A stretch of DNA of 64,000 bases. Origin: Antedon bifida (Eukaryota; Echinodermata; Crinoidea; Comatulida; Antedonidae). The notes under the pieces are model-generated. The model searched no databases, had not been told where the DNA came from, and worked only from the letters and a program-made list of their open reading frames with translations. This document shows positions 37,571 to 62,485 of this stretch, piece after piece. The translations under genes were made by a program, and so were the position numbers. Location: the NCBI GenBank assembly GCA_963402885.1, contig OY727102.1, forward strand, positions 18,290,001 to 18,354,000, in the 5' to 3' direction. Numbering within the stretch: the stretch's first letter is position 1; each line of letters opens with the position of its first letter.

Positions 37571-37981
37571 CAATCTATGATATTATGCCGTGTTTTAAGC
37601 TAAAGGGATTTACTGCAATACATTGTACTTTGTACTTTTTTCACAATGGCAAATTGAATGCCGGTTTCATGAAATATTGTGTACATTCTAATTATTGATA
37701 CGTTTTGTGTGAAAAAGATACATTAAGATGAAAGCAATGGAAAAGACCGATTGAATATAATAATGATCATTTTATTGTGACTGATTCGGTAATGATAATG
37801 AATTCTTATTCAATATAGCGCGTAATTACTCAGTCTCATGGGTTTGATGATATAAAACAAGAATAGACTAGGTAACACACTTTATAACAACGATGTATAA
37901 TTCATAATGGCGTACTAATACATAAATCTATTACAGGCTGAGTAGGCCTATAGCGTATGTTTCACTACATTTTCGTAAAAT

Positions 37982-38120
37982 AGCGAACTGTATAAACTTT
38001 AGGCCTATGTGACAAAAAAGTTGATGTACTACCCAAATATGGTAGTGATGTGCTCAAATATGGTAGTGATATGACATCATCATGTCCATTTTTTATCACA
38101 TACAGTTTGATAGTGTAGAC
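37982..38120 (+). mobile_element. Palindromic Harbinger-type MITE, copy H, with a 6-bp GGCCTA insertion
   Basis: The left arm reads AAACTTTA, then GGCCTA, then TGTGACAAAAAAG. Other copies have the same arm without the six bases (AAACTTTATGTGACAAAAAA). The interior has two CAAATATGGTAGTGAT units and GACATCATCATGTCC. The right arm ends TTTGATAGTGTAGAC and the outermost bases are decayed. Confidence 0.8.
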
Positions 38121-38555
38121 AATTCTTTTAAGATTGGTATTCCACATTCCATTTTGTACGAAATAACCATGATTCGCTCAAATTATGGCTGTTCCCTTTT
38201 CCCTACATTACGCGCCTGATAAAATACAAACCAGTATTCCCGACTTTCACTACTTGTTACCGTATTCTATATATTCGTATTACATATTAATATGACCTTC
38301 TACGTCAGATCAGAGCGTTATTGTTGATGAAAACATTGCTAGCGGAGTTTGCGCTCTCCTGAGAAATTCACGTTGACGTTCGCAAACAGGTTGTCGGTGG
38401 TTGCTTATTGTTACAAAGCTAATTAATTTGACCGAAGCGCAATCAATCGAATCCCGGAGGAGATTATCGTCAGTTGGAAGTCGTCGTATCAAGTTTTTGA
38501 GATCTGCCGATTGTTTGACATATTATTATCATTGAACGTGAGCGATGGAGAAGAT
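38121..38555. other. Unassigned, less AT-rich stretch
   Basis: 38300-38500 has more G+C and CpG. A 60-codon minus-strand frame (38310-38492) has no recognisable domain or splice context. Possibly regulatory. Confidence 0.3.
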
Positions 38556-38872
38556 GAAGGGAGTGGTTGTGACGATGATTGATCACGAATAGGGTGTTTT
38601 TTAGAGGGAGTGGTGGTTGGCACACAAGAGTTTTCTGGTGTGATGAAGAAGAGAGAGTGCTGGAAGGGAGTGGTTGTAACGTCATGATGATTGATCACGA
38701 ATAGGGTGTTTATTAGAGGGATTGGTGGTCGTGGTTATTGGCACACAAGAGTTTACTGTTGTGATGAAGAAGAGAAAGCTGGAAGGGAGTGGCTGTGACG
38801 TCATGATGATTGATCACGAATAGGATGTTTATTAGAGGGAGTGGTATGGTCGCTGTGGTTGACAGAGAAGAG
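38556..38872. repeat. Tandem repeat, 107-119-bp unit, 3 copies
   Basis: Units start GAAGGGAGTGGTTGTGACG at 38556, 38663 and 38782. Each contains GATTGATCACGAATAGG and TTAGAGGGA. The middle and last units share TCATGATG, lacking in the first. The open minus-strand frames here follow the repeat and show no domain. Confidence 0.9.
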
Positions 38873-39128
38873 TTGATGTTGGTCTCACGGCAATTGGTGA
38901 CAAAGACGAGGATAACGGTGATAGAGAGCTGAATAATAGAAGAAGTAGGCCTACACAAACAGATAATACAGGGATTTATTTCGAAAAATGCCCAAATTAT
39001 TTTAAGATTCAATTATTATGCGCATATTGCTTTGTATCATCTTATAGAGCCAAAGTAATCAAATTTGTCGAAAATTAAAAGGGTCGAAATTTTGCCATTT
39101 TTGGAAAAATCCCTGTAGCATACTATGC

Positions 39129-39317
39129 ATGCATGGACAAGGATACAATGGAGTCATGTCAAGCAACGGTGTAGTAGAGAGTGATGATGCCATAGAAGAC
39201 ATACTGACAGGAGAAAAAGAGCTGGTGTCATGTCAAAACAAATATACTGCTCTTTTTATCCACAAAATTGGTCTGGTTTTATTTTGTTGTTTCGAGTTGT
39301 TAATTTTTAAGTGTTGA
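39129..39317 (+). CDS. Weak candidate coding stretch, unidentified
   Basis: 62 codons from ATG. The first 40 are unusually protein-like (GVVESDDAIEDILTGEKELV) for this AT-rich DNA. The last 20 are hydrophobic and look like intronic chance sequence, so a donor within the frame near 39230 would be needed for a real exon. The flanking acceptor-like CCCTGTAG (to 39118) is poor. No family is recognised. Confidence 0.13.
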   Translation: MHGQGYNGVMSSNGVVESDDAIEDILTGEKELVSCQNKYTALFIHKIGLVLFCCFELLIFKC

Positions 39318-40503
39318 CTTGCCGTTTCACTATTCCTGCGTAACTTTAGGCCTATAGTATGCAAATGAATTAACATCTTTGTACCGGTCTTCACAAATAT
39401 CATTGAAAAATAATATTTAAGTTTAATGTGATGGATCGGAAAGTTTCCAAGTTTCTTTTATTAAGGCATTATTGGTGGTGTATTATGTCGCATTGCTATT
39501 GTTCACGGGCGTATTTGCATATCAGGTGAAGCATTATATTGAGTAGGCTGCGCGAGTGTTGTTTCAGCAGAAGCATTTTTAGTTGTTGTCTAAGTAAGTA
39601 TAGTATAAAGACTATAAAGAATAATCATAAATTGCGTTTATCATTTCTTTTCGTTACACTTAACTTCATAACGCACAGATAAGAATAAAAACGTTATGAT
39701 TGATGTTTAACGACATATATAGATAACTTCACAATTACAATCAAAAGTCTATTATTGATGGCAGTAATTACAATAATACCTGGACGTTGATTAATGACAG
39801 CTAATTATGATAAATATCACAGTGCTGTATCTTCACATATGACAATATGTGTTCAGTATCATAGAACAATTCATAATACAGCATCCCATGTGTATCACAT
39901 GTGGTACTGTTGCATTTGACGCCACGCATTCCTGTTTATTTTATCCATATAATCGGGTTTTGTCGAAATGGTTTTGTATTCAGATGTGAAAATGAAACAT
40001 AATAATGCCTATAAATTACTCACGTGACGCATCAATCGGTATCTATAAATCGCACGCCTTACGCGCGTCGTCGAATTTACATTTTTTTGTACCACAGTTA
40101 AACCTCGATTAAGCTATATCTGTGATGATTTCCCGCGGGAACATTGTACCCGCATGCTTGAACGCGCCTCAAGGGCTTTGCCACGGAATCGTCTGACTAA
40201 GGATATTCCCGCCTTCACTAAGTTTTGGGAACCGACTAATTTTGATTAAATTGGGAGTCTTTTCCCGTGAGGTTAGTGAATACGAAATGTTTTTACAAGA
40301 TGATCAACGCATTGTAACATATATGATATGTCCCAATGCGTTTACGTCTAAACCTGATAAACGAATACGTTATGCTATGAAATTAAATAGCCTATGCTTT
40401 ATTCCTTAGGATGTCAGGTAAACCCACACGTGGTAATTATAATTCTACAGTAAATTAGCACAAGAATCTATGAAATCATAAGTCAATTTTAACGTATACT
40501 TGG
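39318..40503. other. Unassigned stretch
   Basis: 40020-40260 has more CpG and G+C. No gene or repeat is recognised. Confidence 0.3.
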
Positions 40504-40592
40504 AGCTCTGTCTACACTATCAAACTTTATGTTACAACAAAATGTGATGTGCCCATATATGGACATGATGATGTCATATCACTGCCATATGA
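40504..40592 (-). mobile_element. Palindromic Harbinger-type MITE, copy I (truncated)
   Basis: An intact left terminus AGCTCTGTCTACACTATC continues through GATGATGTCATATCACTGCC, then the sequence breaks into GAGATGAGGCCTATGAG. The right half is missing, and the base triplet before the terminus is TGG, not TWA. Confidence 0.8.
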
Positions 40593-41168
40593 GATGAGGC
40601 CTATGAGATTTTAGAATTAACTTAATTAGAAAATCTTGTTAGATTATTTGACATATTTTGCTTTCCATAGACAAATCAATTTTATTTCAATTTTGTATAA
40701 ACCTATAATTATGGTAAAATAATGAGTAACATTAATAAGCGGTTTAAAAAAACGAAGCGATACGTGACGCGTTTGTCGCAGTATGTTCTGAGGTGTTGGT
40801 ATTGTAATGAACGTAATCAATGGATGATCAGCTTATTCAAAGCCTTTATTAAGATAACGATTTAAAGGCGTATGTTCAATAAAGTTTTATAATTATAATT
40901 TACGATCATAAATTGTGAATGGATTGAGTAGGCCTTGAATGGGGGAATTGAACACGCGCACGCGCTGGATCACATGACATCCAGCACGTCAACAAAAGTT
41001 CAATCAAGCTCTGCCATGGAGCTAATGAAACTGATTTTGTGTTTTAGTTAATTCGTTATCACTCCATTGTAACTTGGGTAAACTTCAAGGCAGTTTTAAT
41101 TATTCAGCAATGAATAATCCATTACGATTAGTGAGCTAATTTCGCATAAATTTTTCAGTAGTTGATAG
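40593..41168. other. Unassigned stretch
   Basis: No gene or repeat is recognised. Confidence 0.35.
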
Positions 41169-41585
41169 ATGTTCGTCTTTATGTTCGTGTATATTCGTGT
41201 ATGTTCGTGTTTTATGTTCGTGTATGTTCGTTTTTATTTCGCATATCTTGCTGTTTACAAACAACCATATCACATCATTTACCTCATTTCAGAAAGTGAT
41301 GTAATAATTGATCTATTTTTCAGTCGTTGGTGTTCATCTTTATGGTCGTGTATGTTCGTGTTTTTATGTTCGTGTATGTTCGTCTTATTCGTGTATATTC
41401 GTGTCTGTTTGTGTTTATGTTCGTGTATGTTCGTCTTATTCGTGTATATTCGTGTCTGTTTGTGTTTATGTTCGTGTATGTTCGTTTTTAATTCATTCAA
41501 CATATCTTGCTGTTTACAAACAATCATATCACATAGGCCTAATATTGCTCATTTCGGAAAGTGACGTAATAATCGATTTATATCA
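41169..41585. repeat. TTCGTGTATG minisatellite inside a local duplication
   Basis: Degenerate GTTCGTGTATGTTCG strings run from 41169 to 41235 and from 41340 to 41490. In the second block a 51-bp unit starts at 41363, 41414 and 41465 with near identity. Downstream of each block lies the same unique segment: CATATCTTGCTGTTTACAAA at 41242 and 41501, and AAGTGATGTAATAAT at 41293 versus AAGTGACGTAATAAT near 41559. The whole region is therefore a duplication with a 259-bp offset. Frames of 82-131 codons on both strands arise because 51 is a multiple of three. Confidence 0.9.
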
Positions 41586-41718
41586 AACCCTTTTTTTTAT
41601 GCTTGAAGGCTATTTATTACATGATTTTAAATGTGTGAATACTATTTGAGGCCTCTGTTTGACATTATTATTAGGATCAATTCTGTTAATTGTTTGTTGT
41701 TTATCTGTGAAAATCTGA

Positions 41719-41769
41719 CCCGAGAATATGAACATCGGACCAGAGACTATGAACATCGGACCAGAGACT
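41719..41769. repeat. 21-bp tandem repeat, about 2.5 units
   Basis: ATGAACATCGGACCAGAGACT occurs twice in perfect tandem (41728 and 41749), with partial units on both sides. Confidence 0.8.
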
Positions 41770-43949
41770 TCTCATATTAGGTTGTGATGCGAAATGTCTA
41801 TTACTAGTGTAGGCCCTACAGTTTAACTTAAAGTGTGTACCGTTTCAGCCTCGATTTCGTCTAGACCTATATGATCTATCTTTGTCTTATTACCGTATAT
41901 TACGGAAGTTTATCTAAGACCTTCATTAGTCAGTTTTTTTATGAAGTATTTATTTTAATTTTATTTCATTAAACTTTGTTTAAAAGGTCACAAAAGACAT
42001 TGTTATTAGGTGGAAGACAGAGTGAACTTTTGCTTCTAGAATATGGATATAAAAGGTTATAATAGGGCTATAATTGTAATTATCGAATTCATACAATGCA
42101 GAATCGTTTAATTATCATGGGTAACAAAACCCCTAAAGTACATAAAGCCTATTCTGTATGTTATTACCCACCCATAAACTAACAGAGACAAAATGACAAC
42201 TGACGATTTCAATTCATCTATTTTGTAATCGCTTCTTCGTTATCGACTATCTTGTCCTTCTAACTACTCAGCTAAATTAAGTAATTTGTGTACTTTAGTC
42301 TATGAAAAAAGCACCATTACAGTTAAGTACAATTAGTAATTGTTATACCAGTAAGAAATAAATATAACATGGAATATTACGTACCCATTATTAAGATTAC
42401 TTGGGTTTATCGAAAATATATGTTTTTTTTATTACCACCAATGATTGTCGAATGCATTGATGTTTAAGCAATGTTAAACGGCTGATAAACAACCAGAAAA
42501 TATACTCTAAAACTACCGTTTAAAAGTTATTAAAAATAAGCTCGTACTTAGCAGATCATTTGCACGTTTTATTGTTGTAATTTCTCCTTTTTTTTAATCG
42601 AGGTGTTACTTAATTTTCATATAATACGCTATATAAAGTGCACTTGGTTGATGTCGTTATATGAGATGTTTTAAGATTATTCTGTCTATGTTATTAACAA
42701 AGTCTGACAGAGAAAGTTTCCTTAAAGGTGATTCGAGAAGTTTTCTTCTCCTTAAACTTTTTTGGGCTATATTATCCCTATACTTTAGAATATGCTACCC
42801 CTGTAAAACAGGATGCAAAGGTTATTGTAGGTTTATTCTTGCCAACAACTATGATAACTGCCAAAAAAATTACAAATGCACAAAAAAAAGTAAGCAAAAA
42901 TGAACGTTTTAATCACTTCTAAAATAAAAAAATGTTCCATCATTGCAATCATCGCAAAAACTTAAAGATTTAAAAATAGTCATGTCCTCTATTTGATGAA
43001 ATTATTAGAAAATAGTATAGTATGTAAATAAATTAAGTATTGGTGTACCTCAATTGCAGCATTGTTTTTCTTCTTTTTTTTATATACATTTTATCTTTGA
43101 TGTACATTTTATCTTAAATGTAATTTGTGATTATCGTATTGTATATATTTAGTAAAGAATACGTCAATTCAGCACTTGTGCTGCCTTTATATTTTTATAT
43201 TTTATTTTTTTATTGAATAGGCCTAAACATACCGAGATATATTTGTTCGATTTTATTCTGCTCTTTATGACTAAAAACATTAACTTAATTCATTGTCAGC
43301 GTCTTCAAAATTGAAATTATGATTATTATTCAAGCCAACCAACTTCAACCGAGTTAGAGTTGGCACCGCCGATTAATCATACATTTTGTCCCCAACCAAA
43401 CTTGAATTGTTAAATTGTGAAATTTACTATCATTACTGCCGTCATACACAAATAGGCCTACTATACATCATTAAAAAAAACGCACAATTAGACATCTTGT
43501 TCATGTAAGAGAACCATTATTACAATAACATTAATAGTAATTTTAAAGTAATAAAACAGTTTGTGATGCCGTGCGTGTAGGCTACGCTAGCTCAGGTATA
43601 TAGTTGAGTTTTTGACCAGATGACTATGCTGCTGTCATTACAAAATAATGACCGCGTGCTGTTATTACCTGCTGCAACCTTGTTATGAAATTGGTATCGT
43701 TTTTCCATCTTCCAATATTAGATTTTCAAGCATTATGTTTGTCATTACTTTATTCGTTTTCCGTATTTTTTTTTGTTGTGAGTCGATTTATATAGACCTA
43801 ATAAATGCACTCCTAATCTTAGCCCTATATCCATTGCACATTCGTTGTTACTATGTTAATATAGTATTATTAGGCCTAGATGTAATCATAGAAAAATAAG
43901 CAGCCTACCTATTTATCCATGAACTAATCAAATAATGATTTTCCTTTTA
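41770..43949. other. Unassigned AT-rich stretch
   Basis: Overlapping frames at 42661-42922 (+) include a Cys-containing stretch but have Lys/Asn/Phe-rich composition, no signal peptide and no splice context. Not called. The frame at 43648-43899 is hydrophobic chance sequence. Confidence 0.35.
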
Positions 43950-44096
43950 AGCTCTGTCTACACTATCAAACTAGTTTGACAAAAACAAGTGTATTGTGCC
44001 CAAATATGGTAGTGATATACCCAAATATGATAGTGATATGACATCATCGTGTCCATATGGGCACATCACATAAAGTTTGATAATGTAGACAGAGCT
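43950..44096 (+). mobile_element. Palindromic Harbinger-type MITE, copy K (complete)
   Basis: A 147-bp element with both termini intact. The left flank is TTA (43947-43949), the right TTG (44097-44099), one base from a perfect duplication. It has two CAAATATGRTAGTGATAT units in the centre. Confidence 0.88.
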
Positions 44097-44570
44097 TTGC
44101 ACGTATTTGTATATACTCTATTATTAATTATGATAACCTAATTTCTCTTTATCCTAATTTTAGCGCTTTACTTTTAAGTAAGTCAATTTGAGCAAAATAA
44201 AACTGGAGTAGGGCATATTATCTTACAATAATATATGATTCAATGCACGTTGCTATAGCAAATATACAGTTACCACTATATATGCTTTATACCAAATTAT
44301 TACGGTGAAAACGAGCTAAATTAAAATTAAACAACCAATCACAAAACGCCGTTCAGTTTTCAATTAAGTTTTGATACACATTTTCCAATAATTATAATAG
44401 ACGAAAATGATGTATATCTTAAAGTGACGTTATTCTTTGCGGCCTCTCAAGTATTTGAAAGCTATATAAAATATAAATAATTAAACTCAATGGGCGTGTA
44501 TGTTTATTTTACATACTGCATTTATCTATAACATGATGCGCTGCAACACGTGTATTCATATCATGCGATT
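44097..44570. other. Unassigned AT-rich stretch
   Basis: No gene or repeat is recognised. Confidence 0.35.
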
Positions 44571-45130
44571 GTTTTGATCGACGATACATTGTTCAATATA
44601 TTTTTTTTAATTGATTAATTGTTGGAATCGATAATAATAATAATTGATATTAATCGATATAGTTTATTGTTGGATTAATACATTGATCGATTATTGCAAT
44701 AACAGATCGATCGATTATTATATTAATAAATTGATCGATTATTGCATTAATATATTGATCGATTATTTGATTAATATATTGATGGATTATTGGTATATGT
44801 TATTGTTTTGATACGATACATTGTTCAATAAATTGATTTTAATTGATTAATTGTTGGAGTCGATAATAGATATAGTTTATTGTTGGATTAGTACATTGAT
44901 CGATTAATAGATTGATCGATTATTGCATTAATATTGATTATTGCATTAATATTGATCGATTATTGCATTAATATATTGGTCGATTATTTGATAATATATT
45001 GATTGATTATTGGAATTGATTATTGAATTAATAGATTGGACGATTATTGGAACAAAATATTAATCGGTTATTATATTAATATTTGTATTAAGATTATTGG
45101 ATTTGATTGATAATAGATTGATAATCAATT
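44571..45130. repeat. ATTGATCGATTATT-rich degenerate satellite
   Basis: Dense in TTGATCGATTATTGCATTAA variants of 20-27 bp. A larger duplication is visible: GTTTTGATCGACGATACATT (44571) recurs as GTTTTGATACGATACATT (about 44813), followed in both cases by TTAATTGATTAATTGTTGGA and ATATAGTTTATTGTTGGATT. The palindrome ATCGAT recurs many times. Confidence 0.85.
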
Positions 45131-45274
45131 TGTTTGGTTGATCGATGTATTAATTGTTCTTTTCATTAACTTTCTATAACCATTAATAATTGTTTTTGCA
45201 TTCACAGATCACGATGTATTTAAGAGTAAATCAATATTTATAATAATATAAGCATAATTATGTTGTTAATTATT

Positions 45275-45385
45275 TAGGGACCAGAGTGGAAATAAGTTGT
45301 TTTTTTGTACTTTGTACTGTTTTTATCATTGATTGATCCAATTGATCAACAGAATAAATAAATCAATCAAATTAAGTTACCGTAT
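45275..45385 (+). mobile_element. Possible LINE 3' tail relic
   Basis: GGGACCAGAGTGGAAATAAG, then TTGTACTTTGTACTGTTTTT and a tail AATAAATAAATCAATCAAAT. This arrangement resembles 3' ends of non-LTR retrotransposons in invertebrates (short UTR with simple-repeat tail). No coding part is present. Confidence 0.3.
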
Positions 45386-46019
45386 TATAAAGGTAAACTT
45401 ATTTTTAAACCATGATGCTAAGACTATTATGATAATGCTCTAAGCTAATATTCCGTTTTGTAGCCCATCAAAGTAAATGCTAAATAACATTTAGTACTAG
45501 TATACTTGATCAAATGTACTATTAACGTTATATTCTAAGGCAACGAAGAAAAAATAGAAAATGTTGTTGAAAGACAAAATAGTCTAGAAAAGAAAAATAA
45601 ATAAATCAGGAATTACAGTAAAACTATTGTGCTAGAAAGAGAAAAAAAATTGATAATATTCATATAATGTCCATTCATGTTAATTCTATATTTTACCGTA
45701 TTTTGTTTCTAAAAATAAGCTTAATGCTTTGCATGTGTTCCGAATTTAGCACAACAAATTAAAATGAGTCCGTGCTGCATGTCTACAAACAACAGTTTGG
45801 CTTTCTTCCTCGTTCTTGTCTTTAATGGCGTAATCTTCCCAAGGACAATGTTAATATATACATTTTATCCGGCAACTTGTAAATAAAGATTTGCTTTCAG
45901 ACGGATGTACACACAACGTCATTGATGTAATCACCAAACGACCACGGTCGACGTAATGTGTGCACTAATGGACAACATTAGACGTAACCCATGTGGACAG
46001 CACAGTCGGGAATATAAAA
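45386..46019. other. Unassigned stretch
   Basis: No gene or repeat is recognised. 45890-46010 contains several CpGs (ACGACCACGGTCGACG). Confidence 0.3.
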
Positions 46020-46152
46020 ACTACACCGATCTATGATAATAACTGTATCTTTACCTTTATAATTGTATAGACATAGTTTTTTGTTGTTAATGTATACGTA
46101 ATTTTACTTTTTATCGACTAGAGATACCAAAATAAAAGATTGAATGAATGAA
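46020..46152 (+). mobile_element. Possible LINE 3' tail with TGAA repeats
   Basis: The segment ends AATAAAAGATTGAATGAATGAA, an A-rich stretch followed by TGAA repeats. Such tails are typical of several non-LTR retrotransposon clades. The body is not recognisable. Confidence 0.3.
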
Positions 46153-46379
46153 ATATAATATAATTTAAACCTTTTACAAATTGATACAATTGTTTTGGAA
46201 CTGTACCTACTGAATTTAAATTTTTTTTAAAAATTCAATAATTAACAATCAGTTGTATCCATTGGATGGAATAACATGACGATGTAAAAATAATATGTTC
46301 TAACAATATTGAGAGTTACATAACCTCATTAACAAAATAAAAATATACATACAGTTCTGTACTTCCATCTACATTGAGA

Positions 46380-46565
46380 GTTCGGCCAATGACAAACGAG
46401 TTTGAAGTGCGCCCTCACGTGCCAATTCTGTACGTTGTGGCGGTCAAAGATCTTTTGGTACACTTGCGTCTAGTTAACGCACATCCGCTTATCACGCGCG
46501 CGCCAAGTGTTAGGAAACGCGTACGCATTTCCTAATTACGCACTTCCGTGATTCGCGAAACAAGA
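46380..46565. promoter_or_regulatory. CpG-rich candidate regulatory island
   Basis: One of the densest CpG stretches in the window (CACGCGCGCGCC, GAAACGCGTACGC, GATTCGCGAAAC). It contains two CCAAT strings (near 46388 and 46421) and a CACGTG E-box near 46416. No TATA-like or coding sequence follows at promoter distance. Promoter or enhancer function is inference. Confidence 0.25.
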
Positions 46566-47367
46566 AATAATGTTGCGGCTAATATAAAATGGTTGATCAA
46601 CATTGAGAAGGGCTTCAAAGCTCACCATTAGATAGGCCTATTTATATATACTTAAATTTACCAGCATGATTAATATATTAAGATATGATATTATTTTGTA
46701 TAGGACCTATTCCAAGTGTGCCATCTACTATGGCGAGCTAAGTCCGTCATGGTATGGATTGAGGACTTTTGGCGGACTTGGCTTGCCATAATCTATCATT
46801 TCCTTCCCATCACCAAATCGCAGAGAAAAGATTAAGATTAATTTTTTCATCAGAGCAAATGTTTTTTGTCCTAACATTTAAAATTCGATATGAAACATGA
46901 GTATTAACTCGCACTTTTTATGATGTTGATATACAAGACACGAATTGTGGATTTAGGATTTTAGTTACTTATTTTAGTGTTAATCAAATTGACACCTTCT
47001 AACCTTACTGTTGTTTTACCAGTCTTTAGGCCTGCCACCCATCGAGCATTATGTTATGTGAATTGACGCGAAATAAAGCGTTGTCGCCCCGGGGACTTTG
47101 GTGCTTAAAGTTGATATGTTGGTATGCACCCTGGCCTACGGATGCTGGAGGTCTTCTTACGTTCTTTCTACTTTGATTGTTGTAACCTGTTGCACTTTTT
47201 ATTTTTTAGCCAGTAGGATGCAGTTATATTGTAAAGGTTGATATAGGAAACTACAGTTTTTCCCTGTCTGCTATTTACAGTTTAGAGGCGATATTAGCTT
47301 GATCAGTTCCACTAGGCCTACTACTAGTCGCAACACGTAATGATGTAAGCGCAAGGCGCCGTGATTA
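46566..47367. other. Unassigned stretch
   Basis: 46700-46790 contains an imperfect inverted pair (GGCGAGCTAAGTCCG and CGGACTTGGCTTGCC). No gene is recognised. Confidence 0.3.
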
Positions 47368-47517
47368 AGCTTGGTTCCCACTAGGACGCAACGCAAGGAC
47401 GTAGACGCAACGCAAACGAGTTGACCAATGACAAGCGACGGTCGAATAAATCCATCGCTTGTGATTGGTCTAATCCCTTACATTGCGTTACGTCGTTGTG
47501 TTGCGTGGAACCAAGCT
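47368..47517. mobile_element. Inverted-repeat MITE AGCTTGGTTCC with TTA duplication
   Basis: A 150-bp element. The left terminus AGCTTGGTTCCCACTAGG and the complement of the right terminus, AGCTTGGTTCCACGC, agree. Inside, ACGCAACGCAA and GACCAATGACAAGCGACGG on the left pair with CATCGCTTGTGATTGGTC and TTGCGTTACGTC on the right. TTA flanks both sides (47365-47367 and 47518-47520), again compatible with PIF/Harbinger mobilisation. CpG-rich compared with its surroundings. Confidence 0.85.
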
Positions 47518-48018
47518 TTAGTCACAATTACTTGCGCTGCACTTACGGTCGCGCCGTGAGGGTCATTTTCATACAAGTTCACATAGCAGTCTTATATATT
47601 ACGTTGTAGGAGAGGGAGGGTAACTCTTCACTCTATTTAACCACCAACCTTTTATCGAAGTCAAGACATAAGGGCGAATTTAAAACCTTTATGTAACCTC
47701 GCCCAGGGACCTGTCTATCATGACTGTGCTTTATCCATATACGCTTTGCTTTATTTTCTTTTCTAAAGTCACCCTATAATCCGAGTGATTTTAGGAAATT
47801 ACGTTAATAGTTGCTGTGTGGTTGATTTAATTGTTCGGGTACAGAGTGATTAGTAGTTGAATAGAGAAACATTACGTGTACAATTAACGCTATACGACGA
47901 GTGATTGTTCTCGTATAATGCGTTTAGCTGACCCGTTCACGAATACCGATTAGTGGTTGTCACGTTATGGTGCCTATCTTACAGCCATGCTATACTGCAC
48001 TAGCATTGTAACCTATAG

Positions 48019-48191: not shown

Positions 48192-48242
48192 TAATGTTTA
48201 TTGCAAATAGCATGATTTCGCGAGGGACGTCATTTCACAATG

Positions 48243-48352
48243 CATGATGGGAAGGGTTTGGGAGCAAACGTCACGACGCGTAGGCCTACGTACAAACAAC
48301 AAATCACGTACGTACGCGTCGTGACGTTTACTCCCAAAACCTTCCCTTCATG
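48243..48352. mobile_element. Hairpin element with a GGCCTA insertion in one arm
   Basis: The arms of about 40 bp are near-perfect complements: CATGATGGGAAGGG...CAAACGTCACGACGCGTA on the left and its complement on the right. The left arm then reads GGCCTA-CGTAC where the complement of the right arm continues directly CGTAC, so six bases were added after TA. CpG-rich and palindromic; no coding content. Confidence 0.8.
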
Positions 48353-48804
48353 CGTCGCGCACAAAATATACTAATTCGCCTTTTTGATGTACAGTAATTA
48401 TCCAGCGTGTTGCAGCAATTTCATGAAGATTTTTGACAATGAAACCGTCCGGTTTTTACTCCCTTCATTTGGCCTTAACTAGTTTAGAATAAAATCTTAT
48501 TCTTTTTGTATAGGCCTATTTTTTGGTGCATTGGTGTACACACAGTTAGCCTAAATGCGAAAAATTATTTTTTTAAGAGTAATAGTTACTGTACCTTTCT
48601 GTGCACACTAAGTTCTGTAATATCTAGGTACAATTCATGGAAATAGTTGGTATATATCACACAGTGTTTCTGGTTGTAGAATACCCCCTGTCTTGTTATA
48701 TCGTACCCTTTATTTTAGCCCTGAATGTTGTGTATAAAAGTGTGTGTTCTTAGGTGTAGGCAAAGGCTACTACATGATTGAAAACATCGAAATAACGTTT
48801 CTTA
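48353..48804. other. Unassigned stretch
   Basis: No gene or repeat is recognised apart from one TAGGCCTA at 48511. Confidence 0.35.
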
Positions 48805-49137: not shown

Positions 49138-49637
49138 ACACGGACTGGCTCACACATAAGTGTGAATCTTAACCTACCGTATACCACGATATGGGATAGT
49201 TAGTGTGTACTTATGTCCAACAGGACATGGTTCACACACAAATCTGTATTTTATATCTTACCTACTACGATACATTGTACAGTTAGTGTTAGTACTTATA
49301 CCCAACAGACATGGTTCACACACAAGTCTGTATGTTATTACTTACCGTACCACGATAAATTGTATAGTTAGTGTTAGTAGGCCTACTGTATGCCCAACAG
49401 ACATGGTTCACAAGCAAGTCCGTATTTTATACCTTCCGTACCACGATACATTGTATTAGTGTTAGTACTTATACCAACAGACATGGTTCACACACAAGTC
49501 TGTATTTTATATCTTACCGTACCACGATACATTGTATTAGTGTTAGTACTTATGCCCGACAGACATGGTTCACACACAAGTCCGTATGTTATACCTTCCG
49601 TACCACGATACATTGTATTAGTGTTAGTACCTATACC
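49138..49637. repeat. Tandem repeat, 80-92-bp unit, about 6 copies
   Basis: Units carry GACATGGTTCACACACAAGT, CCGTACCACGATACATTGTA and TTAGTGTTAGTACTTAT. The marker GACATGGTTCAC starts at 49224, 49308, 49400, 49480 and 49562, and a diverged first unit starts near 49138. The second unit carries an extra GGCCTA after GTTAGTA (TAGGCCTA at 49378), which partly explains its greater length. The open frames across the array are by-products. Confidence 0.92.
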
Positions 49638-49694
49638 CAACTTTTAAATAACCGAATAAATCAATGTTTCCCAGGTACGCCTAATTACTCTTTT

Positions 49695-51190: not shown

Positions 51191-51627
51191 CAAATAGGCC
51201 TAATTTAAAATTTATTTATTAAAATTAATTATTATAAATTAAATATACATATTTGAGACAATATTCAGTATCACTTTCAGAAAGAACTTTTGGTCGAAAG
51301 CGTTTATCAAATTTTCAAATAATAATAATTACAAATGACGTTCTACATTTTTTATTATGAAGCACTATCAATTTCGATTTAATTCCTGTATTTTATAATG
51401 TGACACATTCAATAAGAACAAAATTAGTAATTATGTTTTAATAAATAATTATTTATGGTACTTAAGTATCAATGTCTAGGCTACAATAATAGCCTTTTAT
51501 AAAAAAAATATATATAAACAATTAATTAACTTTAGTTTAGCTTAAAATGTACGTGTTACGCTAACCAGAACGTGTCTATTTGGGGGATTCCCCAGTAACA
51601 TTCATCTTTGAAATATTAACGCCATAG
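51191..51627. other. Unassigned AT-rich stretch
   Basis: No gene or repeat is recognised. Confidence 0.35.
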
Positions 51628-51848: not shown

Positions 51849-52436
51849 CGCGCTATCCATCCTAACCTTTCGCTGAGGAACGACAGATGGCGTCGTGCGC
51901 CAACCATCTGCCTCGGCGAAAACTTCCAACCCTTGGGGAAACAGGCGGATTAATATTAGGATCTGATTGGCTGATCAATATCACATTGCTTGACGTTGCC
52001 CATACGTTGATGTCGAGGGTTAATTCGTTCAATGAGGAACAAAATTAATCCTAGGATATTTATTAATAAGAAATAATTTTAGACGAATCTGGTTTCTTTT
52101 TATCGAACAATGAATGCATATTTCTATTATTTTATTATCAATTTTATCTTTTTATATAGGCCTAAATAGAAAGCGTTTGAAGATATCGTATGATGAATAA
52201 CGGAAAACGCTGTAGGCAATTCCTGCAGAATGTAGGCCTCCACTCATTCAGTTTGAAGCATGTTTAAAAGCAGGCCTAGTGAGTAAGTACTAAGTTCGTC
52301 GCTCTCCGTAATTATTCCCAAATTTAAGCTGAATTGACTTGATTACAAAATTTTACAGTTGATATATTCAGGCCTTTAGAATCTTCAACGTTATAAATTA
52401 CTATCTAGTATACAAAAAATATAAACGTGTAGTTTA
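51849..52436. other. Unassigned stretch
   Basis: 51850-52020 is moderately GC-rich with CpGs. No gene recognised. The stretch ends at the target site of the next MITE. Confidence 0.3.
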
Positions 52437-52589
52437 AGCTCTGTCTACACTATGAAACTGGTTTAAAAAAAAGTGTGATATGCCCAAATATGGTAGTGAT
52501 ATGCCAAAATATGGTAGTGATATGACATATATACATATATGGGCACATTACATTTTTGTCACATAAAGTTTGATAGTGTAGACAGACCT
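52437..52589 (+). mobile_element. Palindromic Harbinger-type MITE, copy M (complete)
   Basis: A 153-bp element with termini AGCTCTGTCTACACTATG and GTGTAGACAGACCT, and a perfect TTA duplication (52434-52436 and 52590-52592). It has two CAAATATGGTAGTGATATG-type units. Confidence 0.9.
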
Positions 52590-52614
52590 TTAGAGTTTCT
52601 TTTTTCTAAAAATA

Positions 52615-52690
52615 GATTTGAACCAGGATGAGAAGGATATACTGTAGTATTCAACGCATAGGCCTATCGACCAGTCAGGGTTGTGTGAAA
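52615..52690 (-). mobile_element. tRNA-like SINE head interrupted by TAGGCCTA
   Basis: On the minus strand CTGGTTCAAATC matches a B-box. Upstream, CTGGTCGATAGGCCTATGCG becomes an A-box-like CTGGTCGATATGCG if six bases (GGCCTA) are removed. This is consistent with an insertion into the tRNA-like promoter. Confidence 0.35.
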
Positions 52691-54834
52691 GTGAGGGATG
52701 TATTCGAGGAACAGACGATCAGACCACGGACCGATTTTGCTGAGTGGAGGAAGATATTATTTAGAGAGGGTTAGCTTCAGTTATAGGATTAGCTTGATTA
52801 TTTAGAAAGTTATGTTATTTTTAGGGATAGGCCTATAAAGATGACTCCGAACAATCACGAATACTTATTTGTGTATAATAGTATCATTTCGCCAAGGGCG
52901 TTATTTCGTCAATACGTCACATGGTTGACGCGCTCGTCGTGAAATATAGGGCTTGAAATGCGCGCGTCAAACTCCCTGCCTTGTGTTAAAGCCTGGTCAA
53001 GTTTGCAAACTAAGGGTTGCTATAGAGTGTAGGCTTTACTGACGAGTTTCGATCAGTAGCCGATATCTATCCAGTCCCAGTCACATTCCCCTCCTCCCAT
53101 CAAAAATTTCCGGAATTCATCGCTAAGTTTGAGAGTTATGTCAACCTGCAAATCGTCACTTCGTCGCCCTTTTTTAATTATGTATTGTTTACGCTAGTGA
53201 TTTCCTTGTCTGTTACCTTACACTATGGCCGTGAGCCTGGCTTAATGATAATCTTCCACCAGAAAGATCAATGAAGTATCGGCTAGATAAAATAGGATCC
53301 CTACTCGAGAACTAAACGGCGAGCAATTTGTTTGTGAAACAAAATAATGTCCAAATGACTTATAATGAGAGATAATTGATCTTAAATGCTAACACAAATT
53401 TTAGCGGATAAAGAAACAAGCATGTTTAAGGTTACAGTTATTTCTATAATTTCTATGTAATCTATACGACCTCATTACAACGATATTTAAATATAACAAT
53501 TATCTAGAGATGACGCGTGTGACGTAACGCAGGGACAATAGTGACTTTTACAGCATATCATACAGAGAATGAATATTTTAATATTCAGATGAAAGAACAC
53601 ATGAATCGCTTGCATCAACCAGGACTATAACTAATAGGCCTAATAAACTACGGCGGCGTATACACTAATGTTTTATCGGTATGGGGCGCCAATTTGGCAA
53701 TAATGCCTAATATTGTAGGCCTTTAGGTCTATTAATTAAAAGAAATTATGACTTAGAAGCTACGAAACATCAACGAAATTATGCCTGCTTTTAATGTATA
53801 ATTAGGCCTAAATACTTTCATACTTTCAACAAATATTTGCAGAATGAGCTTACGTATCTGCGTAATTTAACTAGTTCTTTTAAAAAGTAAATATCAATCA
53901 AACTCTACAACAGATTGACCACTTTCCTTTATTAGTATTAATAAAAATAGTAACAGTACGGTATAATTAATATTAACAAATAATAATATACATTGATGTT
54001 TTCCCTGTAACGGTAGTTTAACCACCAGTATTCTAAACATATGTTAGTTCACAACATTCTAGCGAATACAAATAGAATACTTGATACCAGCTGTCCGTTT
54101 GCATGTACCATGTAGATGAGTGGGAAGCAGAGCACCTTTTTGTGAGTAGGTTGAGTATCATTTGTTTTCTTATCTTGCTTATCGTTTCAATACTCATCAA
54201 ATCTCACTAGAAACGTGTGCCTGAAAGGCGATATGAAGCAATCAATGCGACAAGAACAAACTGAGCACAATTTGATGTGTTTGTTTTACGCAGGTAAAAC
54301 ATGCTGTACGATTAGACGAGTAGTATTTGATTCCAAGCGTACAAGTTGCAACAATCCGCGCGTCAACTTTACCGGTAATTGATATCAGACGGTATATTGC
54401 ATTCTGAACGACAACACATTCTATTCAAGAATTATATAGTGACTTGTTTGCCGTGGTTTTTGATGTGTCAATGTGTCACTTCTATTATATATAAAGTTTG
54501 TTTTGTATGATAATTGATAGCAATTGTACGTACAAATTGAAATCGATAAAAACCCTTCCAAGTTCCACAAACTTTAGGCCTATCTGCGTACAAAAATAAT
54601 AGGAATTCAATTGTTGCCGAAATCTTCTCATTCATGCTGTAAAGTTAGTATATAGATGAGTCGTACCTTTTATCGTAAATTGAACAATATTGGACAATGC
54701 ATTAATTTACCATTTTGATCTTGTTGAATTTACAGAAATTTTAAAAAGTATGTCGTAGTAGTATTATTTGTAACCTTCGGCAACTCATTTAATGTATATT
54801 ATTGCGTGATACCTAGGCCCACATCGATACCAAG
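52691..54834. other. Unassigned stretch
   Basis: CpG-containing DNA at 52900-53170, otherwise AT-rich. No gene, RNA or longer repeat is recognised. Five TAGGCCTA octamers fall here. Confidence 0.3.
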
Positions 54835-55293
54835 GCATATACCATAAATACCACCACATTACCATCACCACCGATAAATACCATAATCATACCACCACTA
54901 TTATTATCCTCATTAACAATATTCACGGTCACTGGTACGTCAACACCACCACCAACAACAACAACCATCACCACCAACCACCACCAATCACCACCACAAT
55001 CACCATCAACAACAACAACCACCAACAACAACTACCACCAACCATCACCACCAACTACCACTACCAACCACCACTACCAACCACCACCATCAACAACAAC
55101 AACCAACAACAACAACCACCACCCCCAACAACAACAACAACAACCACCAATCAGCACCAACAACTACCACCAACCACCACCACCAACAACAACAACAGCA
55201 ACAACCACCACTACCACCACCAACAACCACCACCACCAACAACAACCGCCACCACTACCACCAACAACCACCACCACCACCATCTATTCCGTA
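54835..55293. repeat. CCA/CAA trinucleotide-rich tract (A+C-only strand)
   Basis: About 460 bp dominated by CACCAC, CAACAA and ACCACCA. From about 54940 onward the plus strand is almost free of G and T. It is interrupted and degenerate and therefore old. The minus-strand 72-codon frame rich in Val and Gly is a by-product. Confidence 0.95.
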
Positions 55294-57529
55294 GTCATTA
55301 ATAAATTCACCGCTGATAATGAACAGTGACTGTCAGATATTTCCTCCGTGTCTCTAGGCTGACTTCAATTAAACAAGATTAGCTGTGGTTTTTCTTGTAT
55401 TTTTTCAAGTTCTGTTGTGTAATTTAGGTCAGTGTTAGTTAGATATAGGAGAATGAGGCCATCGACAATGGCCGTTCATATACCCACCCTCGATACGTTC
55501 CAGAAACACCTTTTATAGCTTGTAATTCACCTGAGTAGGCCTACACATCCCATGTGACCCACATAAGCAGCAAACTTACCCTAATTCTACAAGGTATACG
55601 CGTTGAACGCATTGTTAAACGCGTCGCATGGTTTGAAGTAGGATGAAGCTCTACTTATAAACGATAATGAGCCAAATTGTAATGTTTTCTTGATTGCCTT
55701 AGAGCATTTTGCAACACATAATATTGTATTCCTTTTATTTGTTCAATCAAAATGACAAAAAAGTTATCAACATGTCGCAGATGACAGATAAAGGAGAAAA
55801 AAAGTGTTCCTCCTTTTGAAAAAATGGGACCATCTGCCGTTTATTATAATCACTCGGCCATTAGAATTAAATTTAAACATCAATAAAAAATTACTGACAA
55901 TATCAAAACAAAGAAAATAACAAGGTTAACGTATATGAATGACGTAAACTTGACTATCATATTAAATAATCGATAACTGTGAATTTGAAATTAGGATGAA
56001 AAATAACCGGCAACATACAATCATTAGAGAAATAGGTAAAGTCCTAATTATTGCTGTAGTTTAAAATGAACCGATGATTTGGATAAAAGAGTACGTAGTA
56101 TAAAAGAGTGAATATAGGCCTGATTTAACAGGTGCTGAGGGGGACGAGACGAGCGATTCCCAGTGGCATTCCGTCGACGTGTAGCTGCAGTGTAGAAGCG
56201 GTCGCGAGATACTTATCCCCTGAGAAAACTATACCACAGTACATCATAACGTAATATAATAGACTTTTGTTTGGAATAAGTTGATAAATGTAGGCCTAAT
56301 GTTTTTATGGTTCACTAAGCCTATTGAAGCTCTTGAAAAGCGTATAATCTGCTTTGATTTAAGTTACATATTAAATGTATGATTTCTTTTCTTCACTAAT
56401 ATGTATCTTCGTAATTATTAATTATTATTAACTGTTTCTTATCAATTATTATAATGTGCAAAACAGGAATGCTTTCATTTTAATTACATATTAGGCCTAT
56501 TTGAATAAATTAGTATAATACCTATGCAATTCACTATGTTCGTTGAAAATGATATTTATGTCTTTGTGATAACAAGTTAGCTATATTACGTTGGAACATC
56601 AATGATATGATATGCATTTTATATTATTATGATAATGTAATATTTATACATATGCAGATACAGTAGTATACAGTTCATTAAATTTAAATTAAAAAGTTTG
56701 TGTGGAGGTATCAACTACAGTTCTTTTAAACATTAAATGTATATATAGTAGGCCTATACATGTATGTGTATAATGTACCGCTGTATAGCAACAGAATGAA
56801 TAAATGTGGGTGATCCCCACGAAAGAGAAAAAAACAAAAAAACATTGTAATCAAGGCGTTTCTGCTACCACCGCCGCTGTCACCCTAAACAAAAGGTTGG
56901 TCTAATAACCGTCTTTCTGGGGTAACAATCCAATTCGGCAACTATAATTAAGTATAAATAATAGCTTAGTTAATTTTAACTAATTTAATAGCCGACGTAA
57001 GAGGACGTGTTTAACATATACTTATCTAAACAATAACAGAAATTAACAGTTTTTTCTTCGGGTATTTAGCGATCACTATATCTGTGGTATTGATATTATG
57101 ATTCTTAATAGGAGATAATCTCTCGGATACCTTTGTCGGTGTGTTTGTCTCACAATCCAGATGAAGGCTCTAGCGTTGCCTGCCGATTTCAATAGCCCTG
57201 TTCGTTTTCAATAGGCTAGCTAATTGCGGTATTTAATACGTATAACAGTTGAGAATGAAATGAGAATACGGACGGCCTCTTTATAGGATAACCACGACAA
57301 GTATTATTAATTTAATTGTTCGAGTTTTACGCCGAGGCAGTTCTATCAGGCATGAACGAAATGCTGTATTTCAATGTTAAATCATTCTAAAAGCCCCCAA
57401 CGACTAAAATGATTACAACATGAAGTCACAAGTTGAAAAGTCATTTTAATAATATTTGGGTTTCGTTCTCTTTTACCGCAGTTCTCGTTTAACAAGACCT
57501 AATCAAATATTTATATTGTCAAATTTATT
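55294..57529. other. Unassigned stretch
   Basis: No gene or RNA is recognised. Four TAGGCCTA octamers fall here. Confidence 0.3.
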
Positions 57530-57707
57530 CTACTGCAGTAAGTACATTTTTTACTGCAGTAATGCATACCGGTAGTTTAGTTTCTTTCAATTTATAAGTT
57601 TATGAGGCAGTCACTCAATCAATGTGTATGCTTACACACTTGGTAAATAATTGCAAACAGCTTAAAGATACAAAATCGTTACTGCAGTAACTTCAGTAAA
57701 ATGTAGA
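57530..57707. mobile_element. Possible inverted-repeat element with TTACTGCAGTAA palindromes
   Basis: The 12-bp palindrome TTACTGCAGTAA occurs perfectly at 57551-57562 and 57679-57690, and a near copy TACTGCAGTA lies at 57531-57540. Outer strings TCTACTGCAGTAAG and CAGTAAAATGTAGA are roughly complementary. It may be a MITE of about 178 bp. No target duplication is clear. Confidence 0.45.
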
Positions 57708-57956
57708 CCCTAAAACCACCTTTAAAAAATGGTAATACATAGCATGTGCATTTCGTGGTAGGCTATACTGTACCATTATCAGAAATTGAAACAATAATAA
57801 GTCTGAATTTTAATTTTGTATACGGTAACTATTATTTAGGTACTTTAGGAACGATTTTTGATAAAAGCGCGTTCAATATTGGAATTCTTGTTATTCTTAG
57901 TCCTATTTCTGTATCGGATTACCTATATTATCTATAGTATAGGCAATGTGTAGACT

Positions 57957-58013
57957 TTCTTCTTCTTCTTCTTCTTCTTCTTCTTCTTCTTCTTCTTCTT
58001 CTTCTTCTTCTTC
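57957..58013. repeat. (TTC)19 microsatellite
   Basis: Nineteen perfect TTC triplets. The uninterrupted GAA/TTC mirror repeat can form triplex DNA. On the minus strand it reads as poly-Arg within a chance frame. Confidence 0.97.
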
Positions 58014-59953
58014 CTGTTTTGATTATTTTACCTTGGCACATATTTTGACCATTAGGCCTAAATAAAAAAATTAAAACAGTAGATACCAGAAATGAATGAT
58101 TTATTTTGCTTTGATGCAAACAAAAATAAAAGACGAAACATATCAGTGTGATAGTCTAATGATACGATTACTGTCTGTAGCCAAGCTTTTGTTACTCTTT
58201 ATTATCACGATAAATACATTGCTTTTGTAACGCAAGTACTAATTGATTAATTAGTTAATCCCGGGGTTAATCCGTTCTTTATTTCGCAAAAGGTGTCCAA
58301 GCTATAACCATAGCTAGGCCTAATGAACGCACTTTGATCATAGAGCACCACCGGGAGCAACACACTTTGATGTACCGGTTTCTAGTCACACACAACCACC
58401 CCACAAAGGTAGCAACACGCTTACGAACTCTTGAGATCGGCATGTGGTCATGTAGGCCAGCCAAGATAACAACAACTTCATGTTGTGATGATGTAACAAC
58501 AGTGTTGTACGCATGTCAGACACGAGTCTTATTTTAAGTGCTATAATTATTGTTTTCTTTCAAATCTTTTAAAATCCTGACGTTTAATTTGTTCCCAAAT
58601 TACCCTGCCCTTGAAACCGTGAACGATTGTCGTCTCTGTGATTAAAATCCGAATAATATAAACTAATTATCTCTGTTTCTTGGACGTATTCAAAAGTATC
58701 CTATGATTACGATTCTTTCAAGAATTAAACCGTAGGTCAGTAATCGTTGCAGGCGAGAAAATAGCGTGCAGTGCGCGCTAAGCGTGTCCCGTACGTCAGA
58801 CTGCCCATCCTAATCCGATAATCTGTATTGGTCAATCTGTGCGCTATAAGATTTGACAAGAAAATGGACAAAGACTAGTTATTATGAGACATAGAACTGA
58901 TTTTGAATGAAAACTAGTGTTCTATAGGCCTACTTATATCATGGAAATCTCAACTTATTTCTCCATGTTTGTTTCCAGCGCAATTAAATGAAAGTAGGTC
59001 TCTGTGGCGAGCGAGTCAACAAGCATAAACCCCGTACCCCAATCTCCACATCATACCATGCGCGATTGAATTCAAAGAAAATTGTGCAATTGATAATTTG
59101 TTACCTATTTTAACAATGGTGCATGTTTTTCCACTTTTGGCACATTTCAACAACAATCTGCTCATTACATAATTTCCTAGCCCAAGCTTAGGTGTGGCGC
59201 TGTGTTAGTACTTGGTGGATTTGGAGACATGACTTTCCAATGCACACAGTATACCACTAATAGAAAAAACAATTATGAATAAAGCATTTGAAATTTAAAT
59301 GCAACTTTTTGTTTAAAGGCCTACATTATTGAACAATAAGTTTTATCCAAATTGTTCCAGAAATGATGATAACGATAATATTAATTGTGATGCTGATAAT
59401 GAGAATGCGAAATAAGCAAGGTAAGTGGTGACGATGACGATAAGTGACGTCATAGATGATGGGCGTACGCGTATATCTACGAAACAAACATACGCGTGAG
59501 TCACCAACGAAGATGGTACAAGATACGTAAAAGCAAATGATCAGAATCTGGAATACGATACACTGACTGGCTTTGTTAGCGTCGTCTTCTAGAAACTATA
59601 CGCCGGATTGGATTAATCATAGCTATCCAACATGCGGAAATTTAATCGAATTCTTCGGCAATTAAGATGATATTAACACGCTAGAATATTACCTGAACAC
59701 AATCCGAATCAATGTAGCGTCTAAATAGGCGAGAACCTCATTTGTAACAGAATGGTGGAGAAACGGATTTCTTCTTCATATTTTTGATTCGAATTCACGG
59801 TGCTGCAATAAATGTGGGTTTTAGAAACACAGCCGCCGTGTGTACAATAATGTGACGTCATGTGTTTGTAGGTGATTGTGAGATTATTCGTATAATTTCA
59901 TACTATTTTATATTGTTAAAATAGATCATTGGCCTGCTGGTGTGTATTTATAA
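58014..59953. other. Unassigned stretch
   Basis: 58720-58830 and 59440-59640 have raised CpG and may be regulatory. The frames overlapping on both strands at 58279-58537 show no domain. Confidence 0.3.
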
Positions 59954-60129
59954 AGCTCTGTCTACACAACAAAAGTGTCCAAATATGGTAGTGATATGCA
60001 CAAATATGTAGTGATATGCACAAATATGGTAGTGATATGCACAAATATGGTAGTGATAAGACATCTTCATGTCCATATATGGTCACATCACATTCTGTTG
60101 TCACAAAGTTTGATAGTGTAGACAAAGCT
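59954..60129 (+). mobile_element. Palindromic Harbinger-type MITE, copy N (expanded centre)
   Basis: A 176-bp element with a TAA duplication (59951-59953 and 60130-60132). The left arm is shortened (AGCTCTGTCTACACAAC then AAAAGTGTCC). The centre holds four consecutive CAAATATGGTAGTGATATG-type units instead of two; one lacks a base. The right terminus is GTGTAGACAAAGCT. It is the longest copy because of the internal expansion. Confidence 0.88.
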
Positions 60130-60698
60130 TAAGTCCAACAACAAATAACAAACAGAATAAATAGAGTTTGGAAAATATTTTTTTTCAAATTTGAATATTC
60201 GTCCTTGATTCCCGATATGGAACGAACTGTCTCTTCTTATCTTCATGGTAAGCATGCATATTAAAATATGCCCCGCCTACGATACCATCTTCACAAATAG
60301 ATGTGTAGGCCTACAATTCGATTATGATCGATTTCATTCAATTTATCTTATAAGGAAGCAGATTATTGTTAAAAAACACAACAATTATATGTAATCGTCT
60401 TACTGCTAATCCCGTTATAATAAATCAGCTTTGATACGAATCCATAAACAACTTGGGTTTAATATCTGAAACATGAACACAAACGGGATTGTAATTTCAC
60501 AGTATAGTTATTGCACACAAGTGAATATCGTATAATATCAATTGCATTGTATATTGTATCTAAATACCAAAATATATACTGAGTAATTTCAGATTGAATA
60601 AACAAAATGGGTAACTTTTAAATACAGAGAATTAAAGCATTTTCAGCATTGTCAGTAATTGTTTTGTGCATTGTATCATTGTTTTCCGTTTCTTCCGA
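60130..60698. other. Unassigned AT-rich stretch
   Basis: No gene or repeat is recognised apart from one TAGGCCTA at 60306. Confidence 0.35.
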
Positions 60699-60856
60699 CG
60701 GAATTCCGACCAGATATCTTCCAGTAGAATGTACGGATTTATACCGCGTTCGGTATCAGGTCGTGACAACGGAATTCCGACCAGATCTCTTCCAGTATAG
60801 ATATGTACGGATTTATACCACATTCGGTATCAGGTCGTGGCAACGGAATTCCGAGT
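60699..60856. repeat. 71-74-bp tandem repeat, 2.1 units
   Basis: The palindrome CGGAATTCCG starts units at 60699, 60770 and 60844. Shared blocks are ACCAGATATCTTCCAGTA, TGTACGGATTTATACC and TTCGGTATCAGGTCGTG. The overlapping frames on both strands follow the repeat. Confidence 0.92.
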
Positions 60857-62485
60857 AGTTATTATAGTACCGATCATACCTTTAACCATTCTAATTCCAT
60901 GGCGTACTAAGTGTAGGCCTACTCTAATTATTAATGTTTATGACTTTTACTGACTTGACCCTATAACAGAAGATGTTTCTGATTTAAATACAACATAGTG
61001 GCCTTTATAAATATTATAGACCTGTGTATACTCTATGTATTAGAATAAGTTTACTAAACTATCGGATACCACACACTCACAAAATTAAAATGAACTCAAA
61101 TATTGCAATCAATTGAAAGAGTTATTGATGCAGATTGAGATTGGTTCTTGGGGAAATAAATAAAAAAGATAAACTTTCTGATTTGTACCAGAACGGCGTT
61201 CTTACAATAATCAAATTATAATGATATTATGTATCAAGTGAAATCAGTATAACTTAATTATAAAGTTATTCTACCCGCGAATCAGTTCATAATATTAATA
61301 CGGTACAGAATAATTGACAAAGGTTAAACAGTATCACTAACCTAAATCAAACCTAGCCTAACAATCGTTAGATTCGCCGTTCATAAAGTCAATAAGAATG
61401 TAGGCCTTCTTGGTGTAACTCATCTTTATTCGACATGCGACTTATTAATACTTTAGAACAATGCAAATAAGCAGTCATAATTCAGTATTGTTGTAAAAAT
61501 AGAATAGGTCTGCCAACAAAATGAGTCACTTTGTACTCTCGTTTTTGGCTCGGTCGATCTTAATTCGTTTAGTATAGATTTGACCACATGTCCTAGTATG
61601 AACGCGCTGATCGACAGAGTTCGTTGAAAAACTAGGCTTTGCATATAGTACCTTGTCGACATCTGTAGACAAGTTGGACAATTATTGGATTTGTTCAGTT
61701 TGTATATAATATTTCGTTTTCTTGACACTTCCAGATGATTCCAATACAACGGTATGGAGTTCCTTCATGATTAAACAATCAAAAGTCATGAAACTTATAT
61801 ATTAATGTAATGTTGTAGGTTTTTACAAGTTGCTTATTCGAGGGGATAAGACGTATAATAGGAAGGGAGGAGAAGATGTAAGATAATGATGAATGTTACA
61901 AGTATACTTAATAAATTAATAATTATATAGCTTTTTTTCAAAACTAGAAATGTTTAAAATTTTAAATAAAGATGCAATTAGTTACTGCTTAATAATAACT
62001 GAAATGATAACTTGTTTATGGTGCTGATACATAGATTTGGATTTGACATGTTTTGTAACACACGTCGTGGCACGATCACAAATTGTGGCGTCGATTGCCT
62101 TCCATACTTTGATAAAGCGATGATCGAAGCCGAACATTTTCGTCGTTGTCTTTAGGAGCAAAATATAAAATCTGCCATTTTATGAGGTGAAAAAATATAT
62201 ATTACATTTATAACTGCGAATAGTATTGATGTACGAAATTAAAAATTGCGAAGTATTTCAAATTAAGAATATAATTCATGCATTCAGTTTTTAATCACAT
62301 GCATTCATGGATTCTATTTTATTTTAGTAGGCAATCGTAAATCATGTTTTCTCTGTTTTAAAAACTAACATGACAAGAAATGGAAGTGTTAATAATCCAT
62401 TTTGGAAATAATGAATATTTTCTGTCTGGAATCGAATTTTAGAAATTAGGACAAGTTCATGATTTTCTTAAATCAATTATTATTG
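60857..62485. other. Unassigned stretch
   Basis: A 98-codon minus-strand frame (61453-61749) has no recognised domain, no signal peptide and no splice context. It is not called. The rest is AT-rich. Confidence 0.3.

Follow-up and report, generated by a model that had tools for sequence, protein, structure and literature searches.

Cut-and-paste transposable elements of the Tc1/mariner type target the dinucleotide TA and may leave behind them a footprint, in which a few bases stand between two copies of the TA. In the passages cited here, the footprint of the Sleeping Beauty system is described as identical with the 3' overhang that remains at the donor site (PMC7827188), with TACAGTA and TACTGTA as its two consensus forms (PMC4378557), while the footprint lengths in print are 2-4 bases (PMC7913693) or 1-4 end bases (PMC1925063) and the mariner footprints are said to be often less variable in vivo than in vitro, the cut being made 2-3 bases inside the element (PMC2642840, on Mos1). 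In the present work, we describe the octamer TAGGCCTA, of the form TA-GGCC-TA, in a window of 64,000 nucleotides (the whole stretch of DNA that was analysed) from the crinoid Antedon bifida (GenBank assembly GCA_963402885.1, contig OY727102.1, positions 18,290,001 to 18,354,000 of the forward strand) and in the genome to which it belongs. On balance, and by a small measure, we favour the view that this word is mostly the six-base scar of a departed TA-targeting, Tc1/mariner-like cut-and-paste element.

The octamer has clear points of likeness to the described systems and clear departures from them. Like the Sleeping Beauty and other Tc1-type footprints, it involves a TA target, a doubled TA and a few bases between, and both classes of scar occur here at one and the same site in a miniature inverted-repeat transposable element (MITE); the interior of the known footprints is, however, CAG or CTG, whereas here it is GGCC, four bases long and self-complementary, and partial searches saw no element with such ends. 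The Stowaway/Osmar5 footprints of grasses likewise consist of 1-4 end bases beside a doubled TA but are heterogeneous, with five putative scars at one site in the account cited (PMC1925063), whereas here one octamer is dominant. HIP1 (GCGATCGC) of the cyanobacteria is also an eight-base palindrome found at high frequency, but it is bacterial and is discussed with methyltransferases, and the part of that paper on which we draw (PMC4390886) does not speak of insertion at TA. Searches of the open-licence literature of PubMed Central, judged from titles and the beginnings of abstracts, showed no evident account of TAGGCCTA as a footprint.

The excess of the octamer is genuine: it extends over the whole genome and goes far beyond chance. 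The window contains 33 exact copies, 29 of which lie between 37943 and 60921, where 100 dinucleotide shuffles of the same sequence gave a mean of 0.40 and a maximum of 2; with tandem arrays and MITEs masked, no other octamer of the window is as enriched (z ~50), and the spacing of its copies between 37943 and 60921 is consistent with random (Kolmogorov-Smirnov p 0.51). The genome-wide count against a Markov model that the original prediction called for gives 109,821 copies in 315,563,634 bases, compared with an estimated ~2,521 expected and with 1,444 copies of the reversed control pattern. The expectation is derived from the trinucleotides, octamers masked, of a 174-kb sample that comprises the window and eleven 10-kb stretches (L074-L084), each drawn at the 3.00-Mb point of a contig; the sample is position-fixed and not random, and nearly the whole genome lies within eleven contigs of 19-37 Mb. 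A further contig, of 15,844 bases, is mitochondrial, and its COX3, translated with the echinoderm code, shares 97% identity with the COX3 of Antedon mediterranea and 84-87% with those of the next feather stars listed, which places the genome in or near Antedon. Amongst the TA-x-TA words with a four-base interior, TAGGCCTA is the most enriched in this sample.

Where comparison is possible, alignment gives good support to an origin by insertion at TA, and in most of the few comparable repeat copies the octamer looks like a gain of six letters at that dinucleotide. The MITE copy that carries the octamer at 38000-38007 can be aligned with six sister stretches, all of them without the insert, four reading exactly AAACTTTATGTGAC and two with one differing base, as befits a gain at a single site. 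In the hairpin at 48243-48352 the left arm alone has the octamer (48281-48288) and reads GACGCGTAGGCCTACGTAC, where the right arm reads GACGCGTACGTAC with a plain TA, and in the tandem array at 49.1-49.6 kb only one of the six units has it (49378-49385), the net gain being of 7 bases with one G also different. These three comparisons, the extra G included, had been noted in the original prediction and are reproduced. A fourth, the local duplication with the octamer at 41534-41541 in one copy, is also reproduced, the partner being six bases shorter, but with an irregularity: the partner lacks the TA itself and reads ATATCACATCAT, with TC where TA is expected. The fifth and last, a tRNA-like A-box at the octamer of 52659-52666, finds no support, as neither ARAGORN nor Rfam at its gathering cut-off detects a tRNA in the window.

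A spanning homologue was found for 7 of the 88 testable octamer sites of the window and the 10-kb stretches. Four of these are gains (41534, 49378, L082:1640 and L083:9130, the latter two being weaker and aligned at 86% and 80%, respectively), one is a low-complexity match (56749) and two, L082:1787 and L082:5172, are homologues of each other, with the octamer in both. A looser rerun gave a homologue for 22 of 115 sites, the added loci making this a biased sample, and a simple gain rule was passed by 11, from which we accept 38000 (on the basis of its sister-copy alignment), 41534, 49378, L082:1640 and L083:9130. The sites 43218, 56749, L073:1438, L109:1222, L111:2858 and L113:2946 were rejected as gains, being weak AT-rich matches or having another octamer as the partner. 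The predicted passage from TA to TA-GGCC-TA by insertion can thus be followed in six comparisons, two of them irregular and two weaker, and in two exact cases from the MITE sites described below, one of which is the window copy itself. As in a Tc1/mariner footprint, the event lies at a TA and the TA is retained on both sides of the added bases, the homologues having TA where the octamer has TA-GGCC-TA; the TC partner in one of the six comparisons is the exception on both counts.

Whole-genome pattern scans, in which two MITE flanks were allowed a free gap and the rows were counted by hand, place the octamer amongst other insertions at the same kind of site. Between AAACTTTA and TGTGAC there are 75 insertions of 1-12 bases, including 17 of five bases (six CAGTA and four CTGTA), three of six bases (GGCCTA, which is the window copy, GACCTG and TCATTA) and one of seven bases that reads TGGCCTA; the flanks of 15 retrieved copies of this site differ by eye, and a scar may have been passed down from a source copy that they share. 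The 100 of 147 matches listed between GTAGTGATA and TGACATC show 16 five-base insertions (seven CTGTA and five CAGTA) and three six-base insertions, with GGCC in none of the insertions amongst them. At the site between CACTACCATA and TTTGGGCA, all six of the six-base insertions end in TA, one being GGCCTA, one a tandem duplication and one perhaps slippage. CAGTA or CTGTA therefore make up 22 of the 33 five-base insertions over the first two sites (10/17 and 12/16 among the matches listed), and 10 of the 12 six-base insertions over all three sites end in a new TA, although one of these is a plain tandem duplication and another, TTATTA, may be slippage; two of the 12 are GGCCTA and one is GACCTG. 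In the 174-kb sample TACAGTA and TACTGTA, the known Tc1-type footprint words, are dispersed and number 120 against 43 expected with both strands counted (~2.8-fold), and they show no link with CpG-rich bins (rho -0.16, p 0.15). Because CAGTA and CTGTA are so frequent at the MITE sites, we conclude that TA-x-TA scars are common in this genome, with TAGGCCTA the most striking of them. The MITE family itself, whose ends read close to AAGCTCTGTCTACACTATCAAACT and whose interior has 21-base repeats, has about 12 copies in the window (12812-60133), and its words are also frequent across the 174-kb sample.

An excision footprint of this form could arise as follows. A TA-targeting cut-and-paste element would sit at a TA and then leave; its ends would read GGCC (or GG...CC), its transposase would cut within the element, a few bases from the end, these bases would remain on the donor as 3' overhangs, and end joining would close the donor as TA-GGCC-TA. 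The CAG overhang of Sleeping Beauty yields either TACAGTA or TACTGTA, whereas a four-base GGCC overhang, being self-complementary, would pair perfectly and give one uniform product, so that in this model only one join would be possible, in keeping with the prevalence of a single word and the small number of its one-base variants. The scars would afterwards decay through ordinary mutation. A few elements active at any one time would be enough, with neutral scars piling up over very many generations, and the lack of resident copies would therefore not be fatal to the footprint reading. This was also the origin put forward in the original prediction; it is made likelier by how often TACAGTA and TACTGTA scars occur at comparable sites, and what it has not gained is the element, as partial searches found none with GG...CC or GGCC ends. 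We file the octamer as working like a Tc1/mariner footprint rather than as an established member of that class.

Several observations weigh against an origin by excision. Two pairs of homologous sites, L082:1787 with L082:5172 and L109:1222 with L111:2858, have the octamer in both members. At the first two of the MITE sites the octamer, with 1 exact case among the matches listed, is much less frequent than CWGTA, with 22, yet the octamer and the CWGTA words are in about equal excess across the 174-kb sample. The variants that imprecise repair would leave are scarce, TACCTA being at expectation, TAGCCTA at 35 against 15 expected and TAGGCCCTA at 5 against 0.6. Partial terminal-repeat scans of the window and the 174-kb sample revealed no convincing element with TA-GG or GGCC ends, in agreement with the earlier statement that the window has no full-length TAGG...CCTA element. 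At 64,142 sites of the genome TAGGCC has A, C or G as its next base, and the 100 of these that were listed, all from the opening 1.04 Mb of contig C1, share no common extension, a local tandem array aside. At least 15 DDE_3 matches are present in the genome, 14 of them above the cut-off, and the 12 DDE_3 (Tc1-type) loci retrieved have no convincing terminal repeats, one AT-rich match aside, the transposase search having covered this one family. Pfam detected no gene or transposase above the cut-off in ten open reading frames of the window and, at E 0.01, nothing in X-coded frames (six frames for 19-64 kb and three plus frames for 4-19 kb); these are weak negatives, since one frame of the viral contig L057, meant as the positive control, gave nothing either.

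The relatives of the octamer bear on its age. One-mismatch words number 88 in the 174-kb sample, against 37.7 expected and beside 74 intact copies, with an excess at all eight positions, and 28 in the window alone, against 14.6 expected. An excess at every position is as for neutral decay and, read in this way, would put the divergence per site at roughly 8% for the sample and roughly 5% for the window, both rough upper figures because the trinucleotide expectation may be too low. Scars would then accumulate at perhaps ~0.4% of the base-substitution rate (109,821 against 0.085 x 315.6 million).

We have considered other processes that could write the same word. In a direct micro-insertion, a nuclease (for example, a domesticated transposase) would cut TA with a 2-base stagger and repair would add a fixed GGCC; the single dominant product, the few variants and the lack of a resident element in partial searches are in its favour, but the TACWGTA scars at the MITE sites are an ordinary transposon signature, and no enzyme known to us appends a fixed tetramer, which counts further against it and leaves this a rather unlikely origin. 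It is quite improbable that the octamer spread by local copying, with repeated slippage of a short repeat or of a minisatellite made up of AGGCCT units. Clusters with overlapping copies do exist, such as the 14 octamers in ~300 bases at C1:18127-18423 (L073), and L078 has a small tandem repeat; the octamers of the window, however, stand in unrelated flanks with random-like spacing, and slippage does not explain the first copy at a lone TA. In the cluster at C1:18127-18423 several octamers overlap by two bases and are mixed with words such as TAGGCTA, an appearance that suggests several hits on one spot.

A dedicated writing process without an ordinary transposon could take the form of a domesticated TA-cutting nuclease, or of a programmed developmental removal of TA-bounded DNA with the scars recorded in the assembled (somatic) DNA. 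We regard it as a long shot; if true, it would explain 110,000 uniform scars, the unseen elements and the preference for CpG-rich DNA. That the octamer is a protein-binding or chromatin motif maintained by selection would suit a palindrome that is denser in CpG-rich domains, but the comparisons show six-base gains and not substitutions and the near-miss excess at every position speaks against a maintained exactness, so that we consider this very unlikely as a general account, selection on some sites being compatible with the data. We give next to no credence to the octamer being part of a larger dispersed repeat, for which no support was found: the flanks of the 33 window octamers resemble one another no more closely than do the flanks of TA sites drawn at random (best identity 26/50 among 528 pairs, against a mean best of 26.4 for the random sites), which contradicts a longer repeat unit.

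The distribution of the octamer is uneven, and its density tends to rise with CpG. Grouped by the observed/expected (o/e) CpG ratio of 2-kb bins, octamers per kb come to 0.18 (<0.5), 0.12 (0.5-0.75), 0.48 (0.75-1), 0.83 (1-1.25) and 0.43 (>1.25, 7 bins); over 87 such bins the Spearman correlation of density with CpG is 0.44, and a Poisson model gives z 3.9 for CpG and 0.8 for GC. The window has a border at ~34 kb (34000): on one side CpG is mostly depleted, the majority of 2-kb bins having an o/e of 0.3-0.8, and on the other it is normal (~1). Depleted CpG usually reflects germline methylation, which in invertebrates is mostly that of gene bodies, and the bias could be read as a preference for chromatin that is open and unmethylated.

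Outside the zone of high density (37943-60921) the window has octamers at 15899-15906, 17100-17107, 20113-20120 and 34861-34868. Within it, and in addition to those of the MITE copy, the duplication, the hairpin, the array and the supposed A-box, they lie at 37943-37950, 38946-38953, 39347-39354, 43218-43225, 43453-43460, 43871-43878, 46633-46640, 47313-47320, 48511-48518, 51195-51202, 52157-52164, 52828-52835, 53635-53642, 53803-53810, 54575-54582, 55536-55543, 56291-56298, 56492-56499, 56749-56756, 58053-58060, 58315-58322, 58925-58932, 60306-60313 and 60914-60921.

Other words and repeats were met in the course of this work. The palindrome TACTGCAGTA occurs at seven sites (57531, 57552 and 57680 of the window, L080:7712, and L081:8643, 9953 and 9980), which is 14 on both strands against 0.3 expected; five of the seven lie at most 130 bases from another, and none of the six testable sites has an empty-site homologue. 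TGACGTCA, counted on both strands of the window and sample, stands at 36 against 3.7 expected (~10-fold). Another dispersed repeat, distinct from the MITE, with copies that are 70-80% alike and at most ~340 bases long, lies at 185-519, 711-1056, 13191-13526, 14553-14875 and 35093-35245, and L079:1312-4293 is an inverted repeat of ~3 kb, possibly an element with long terminal inverted repeats. Viral contigs (IMG/VR) have 65 loci with paired octamers. Five of the nine examined are tandem repeats; the other four (L033, L037, L062 and L065) have clustered octamers with no simple tandem in DNA of 44-62% GC, with eight octamers close together at L033:2626-3905 and seven at L037:4561-4786. The one MITE word searched for in the viral contigs was found in none.

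If the octamers are indeed the footprints of excision, then about one TA site in every 280 (109,821 octamers for an estimated ~31 million TA in the genome) would carry the scar of a vanished mobile element, and the history of element traffic would be readable from footprints even after the elements themselves have gone. Furthermore, the octamers would serve as presence/absence markers and would allow a test, across the whole genome, of where the chromatin lay open to insertion.

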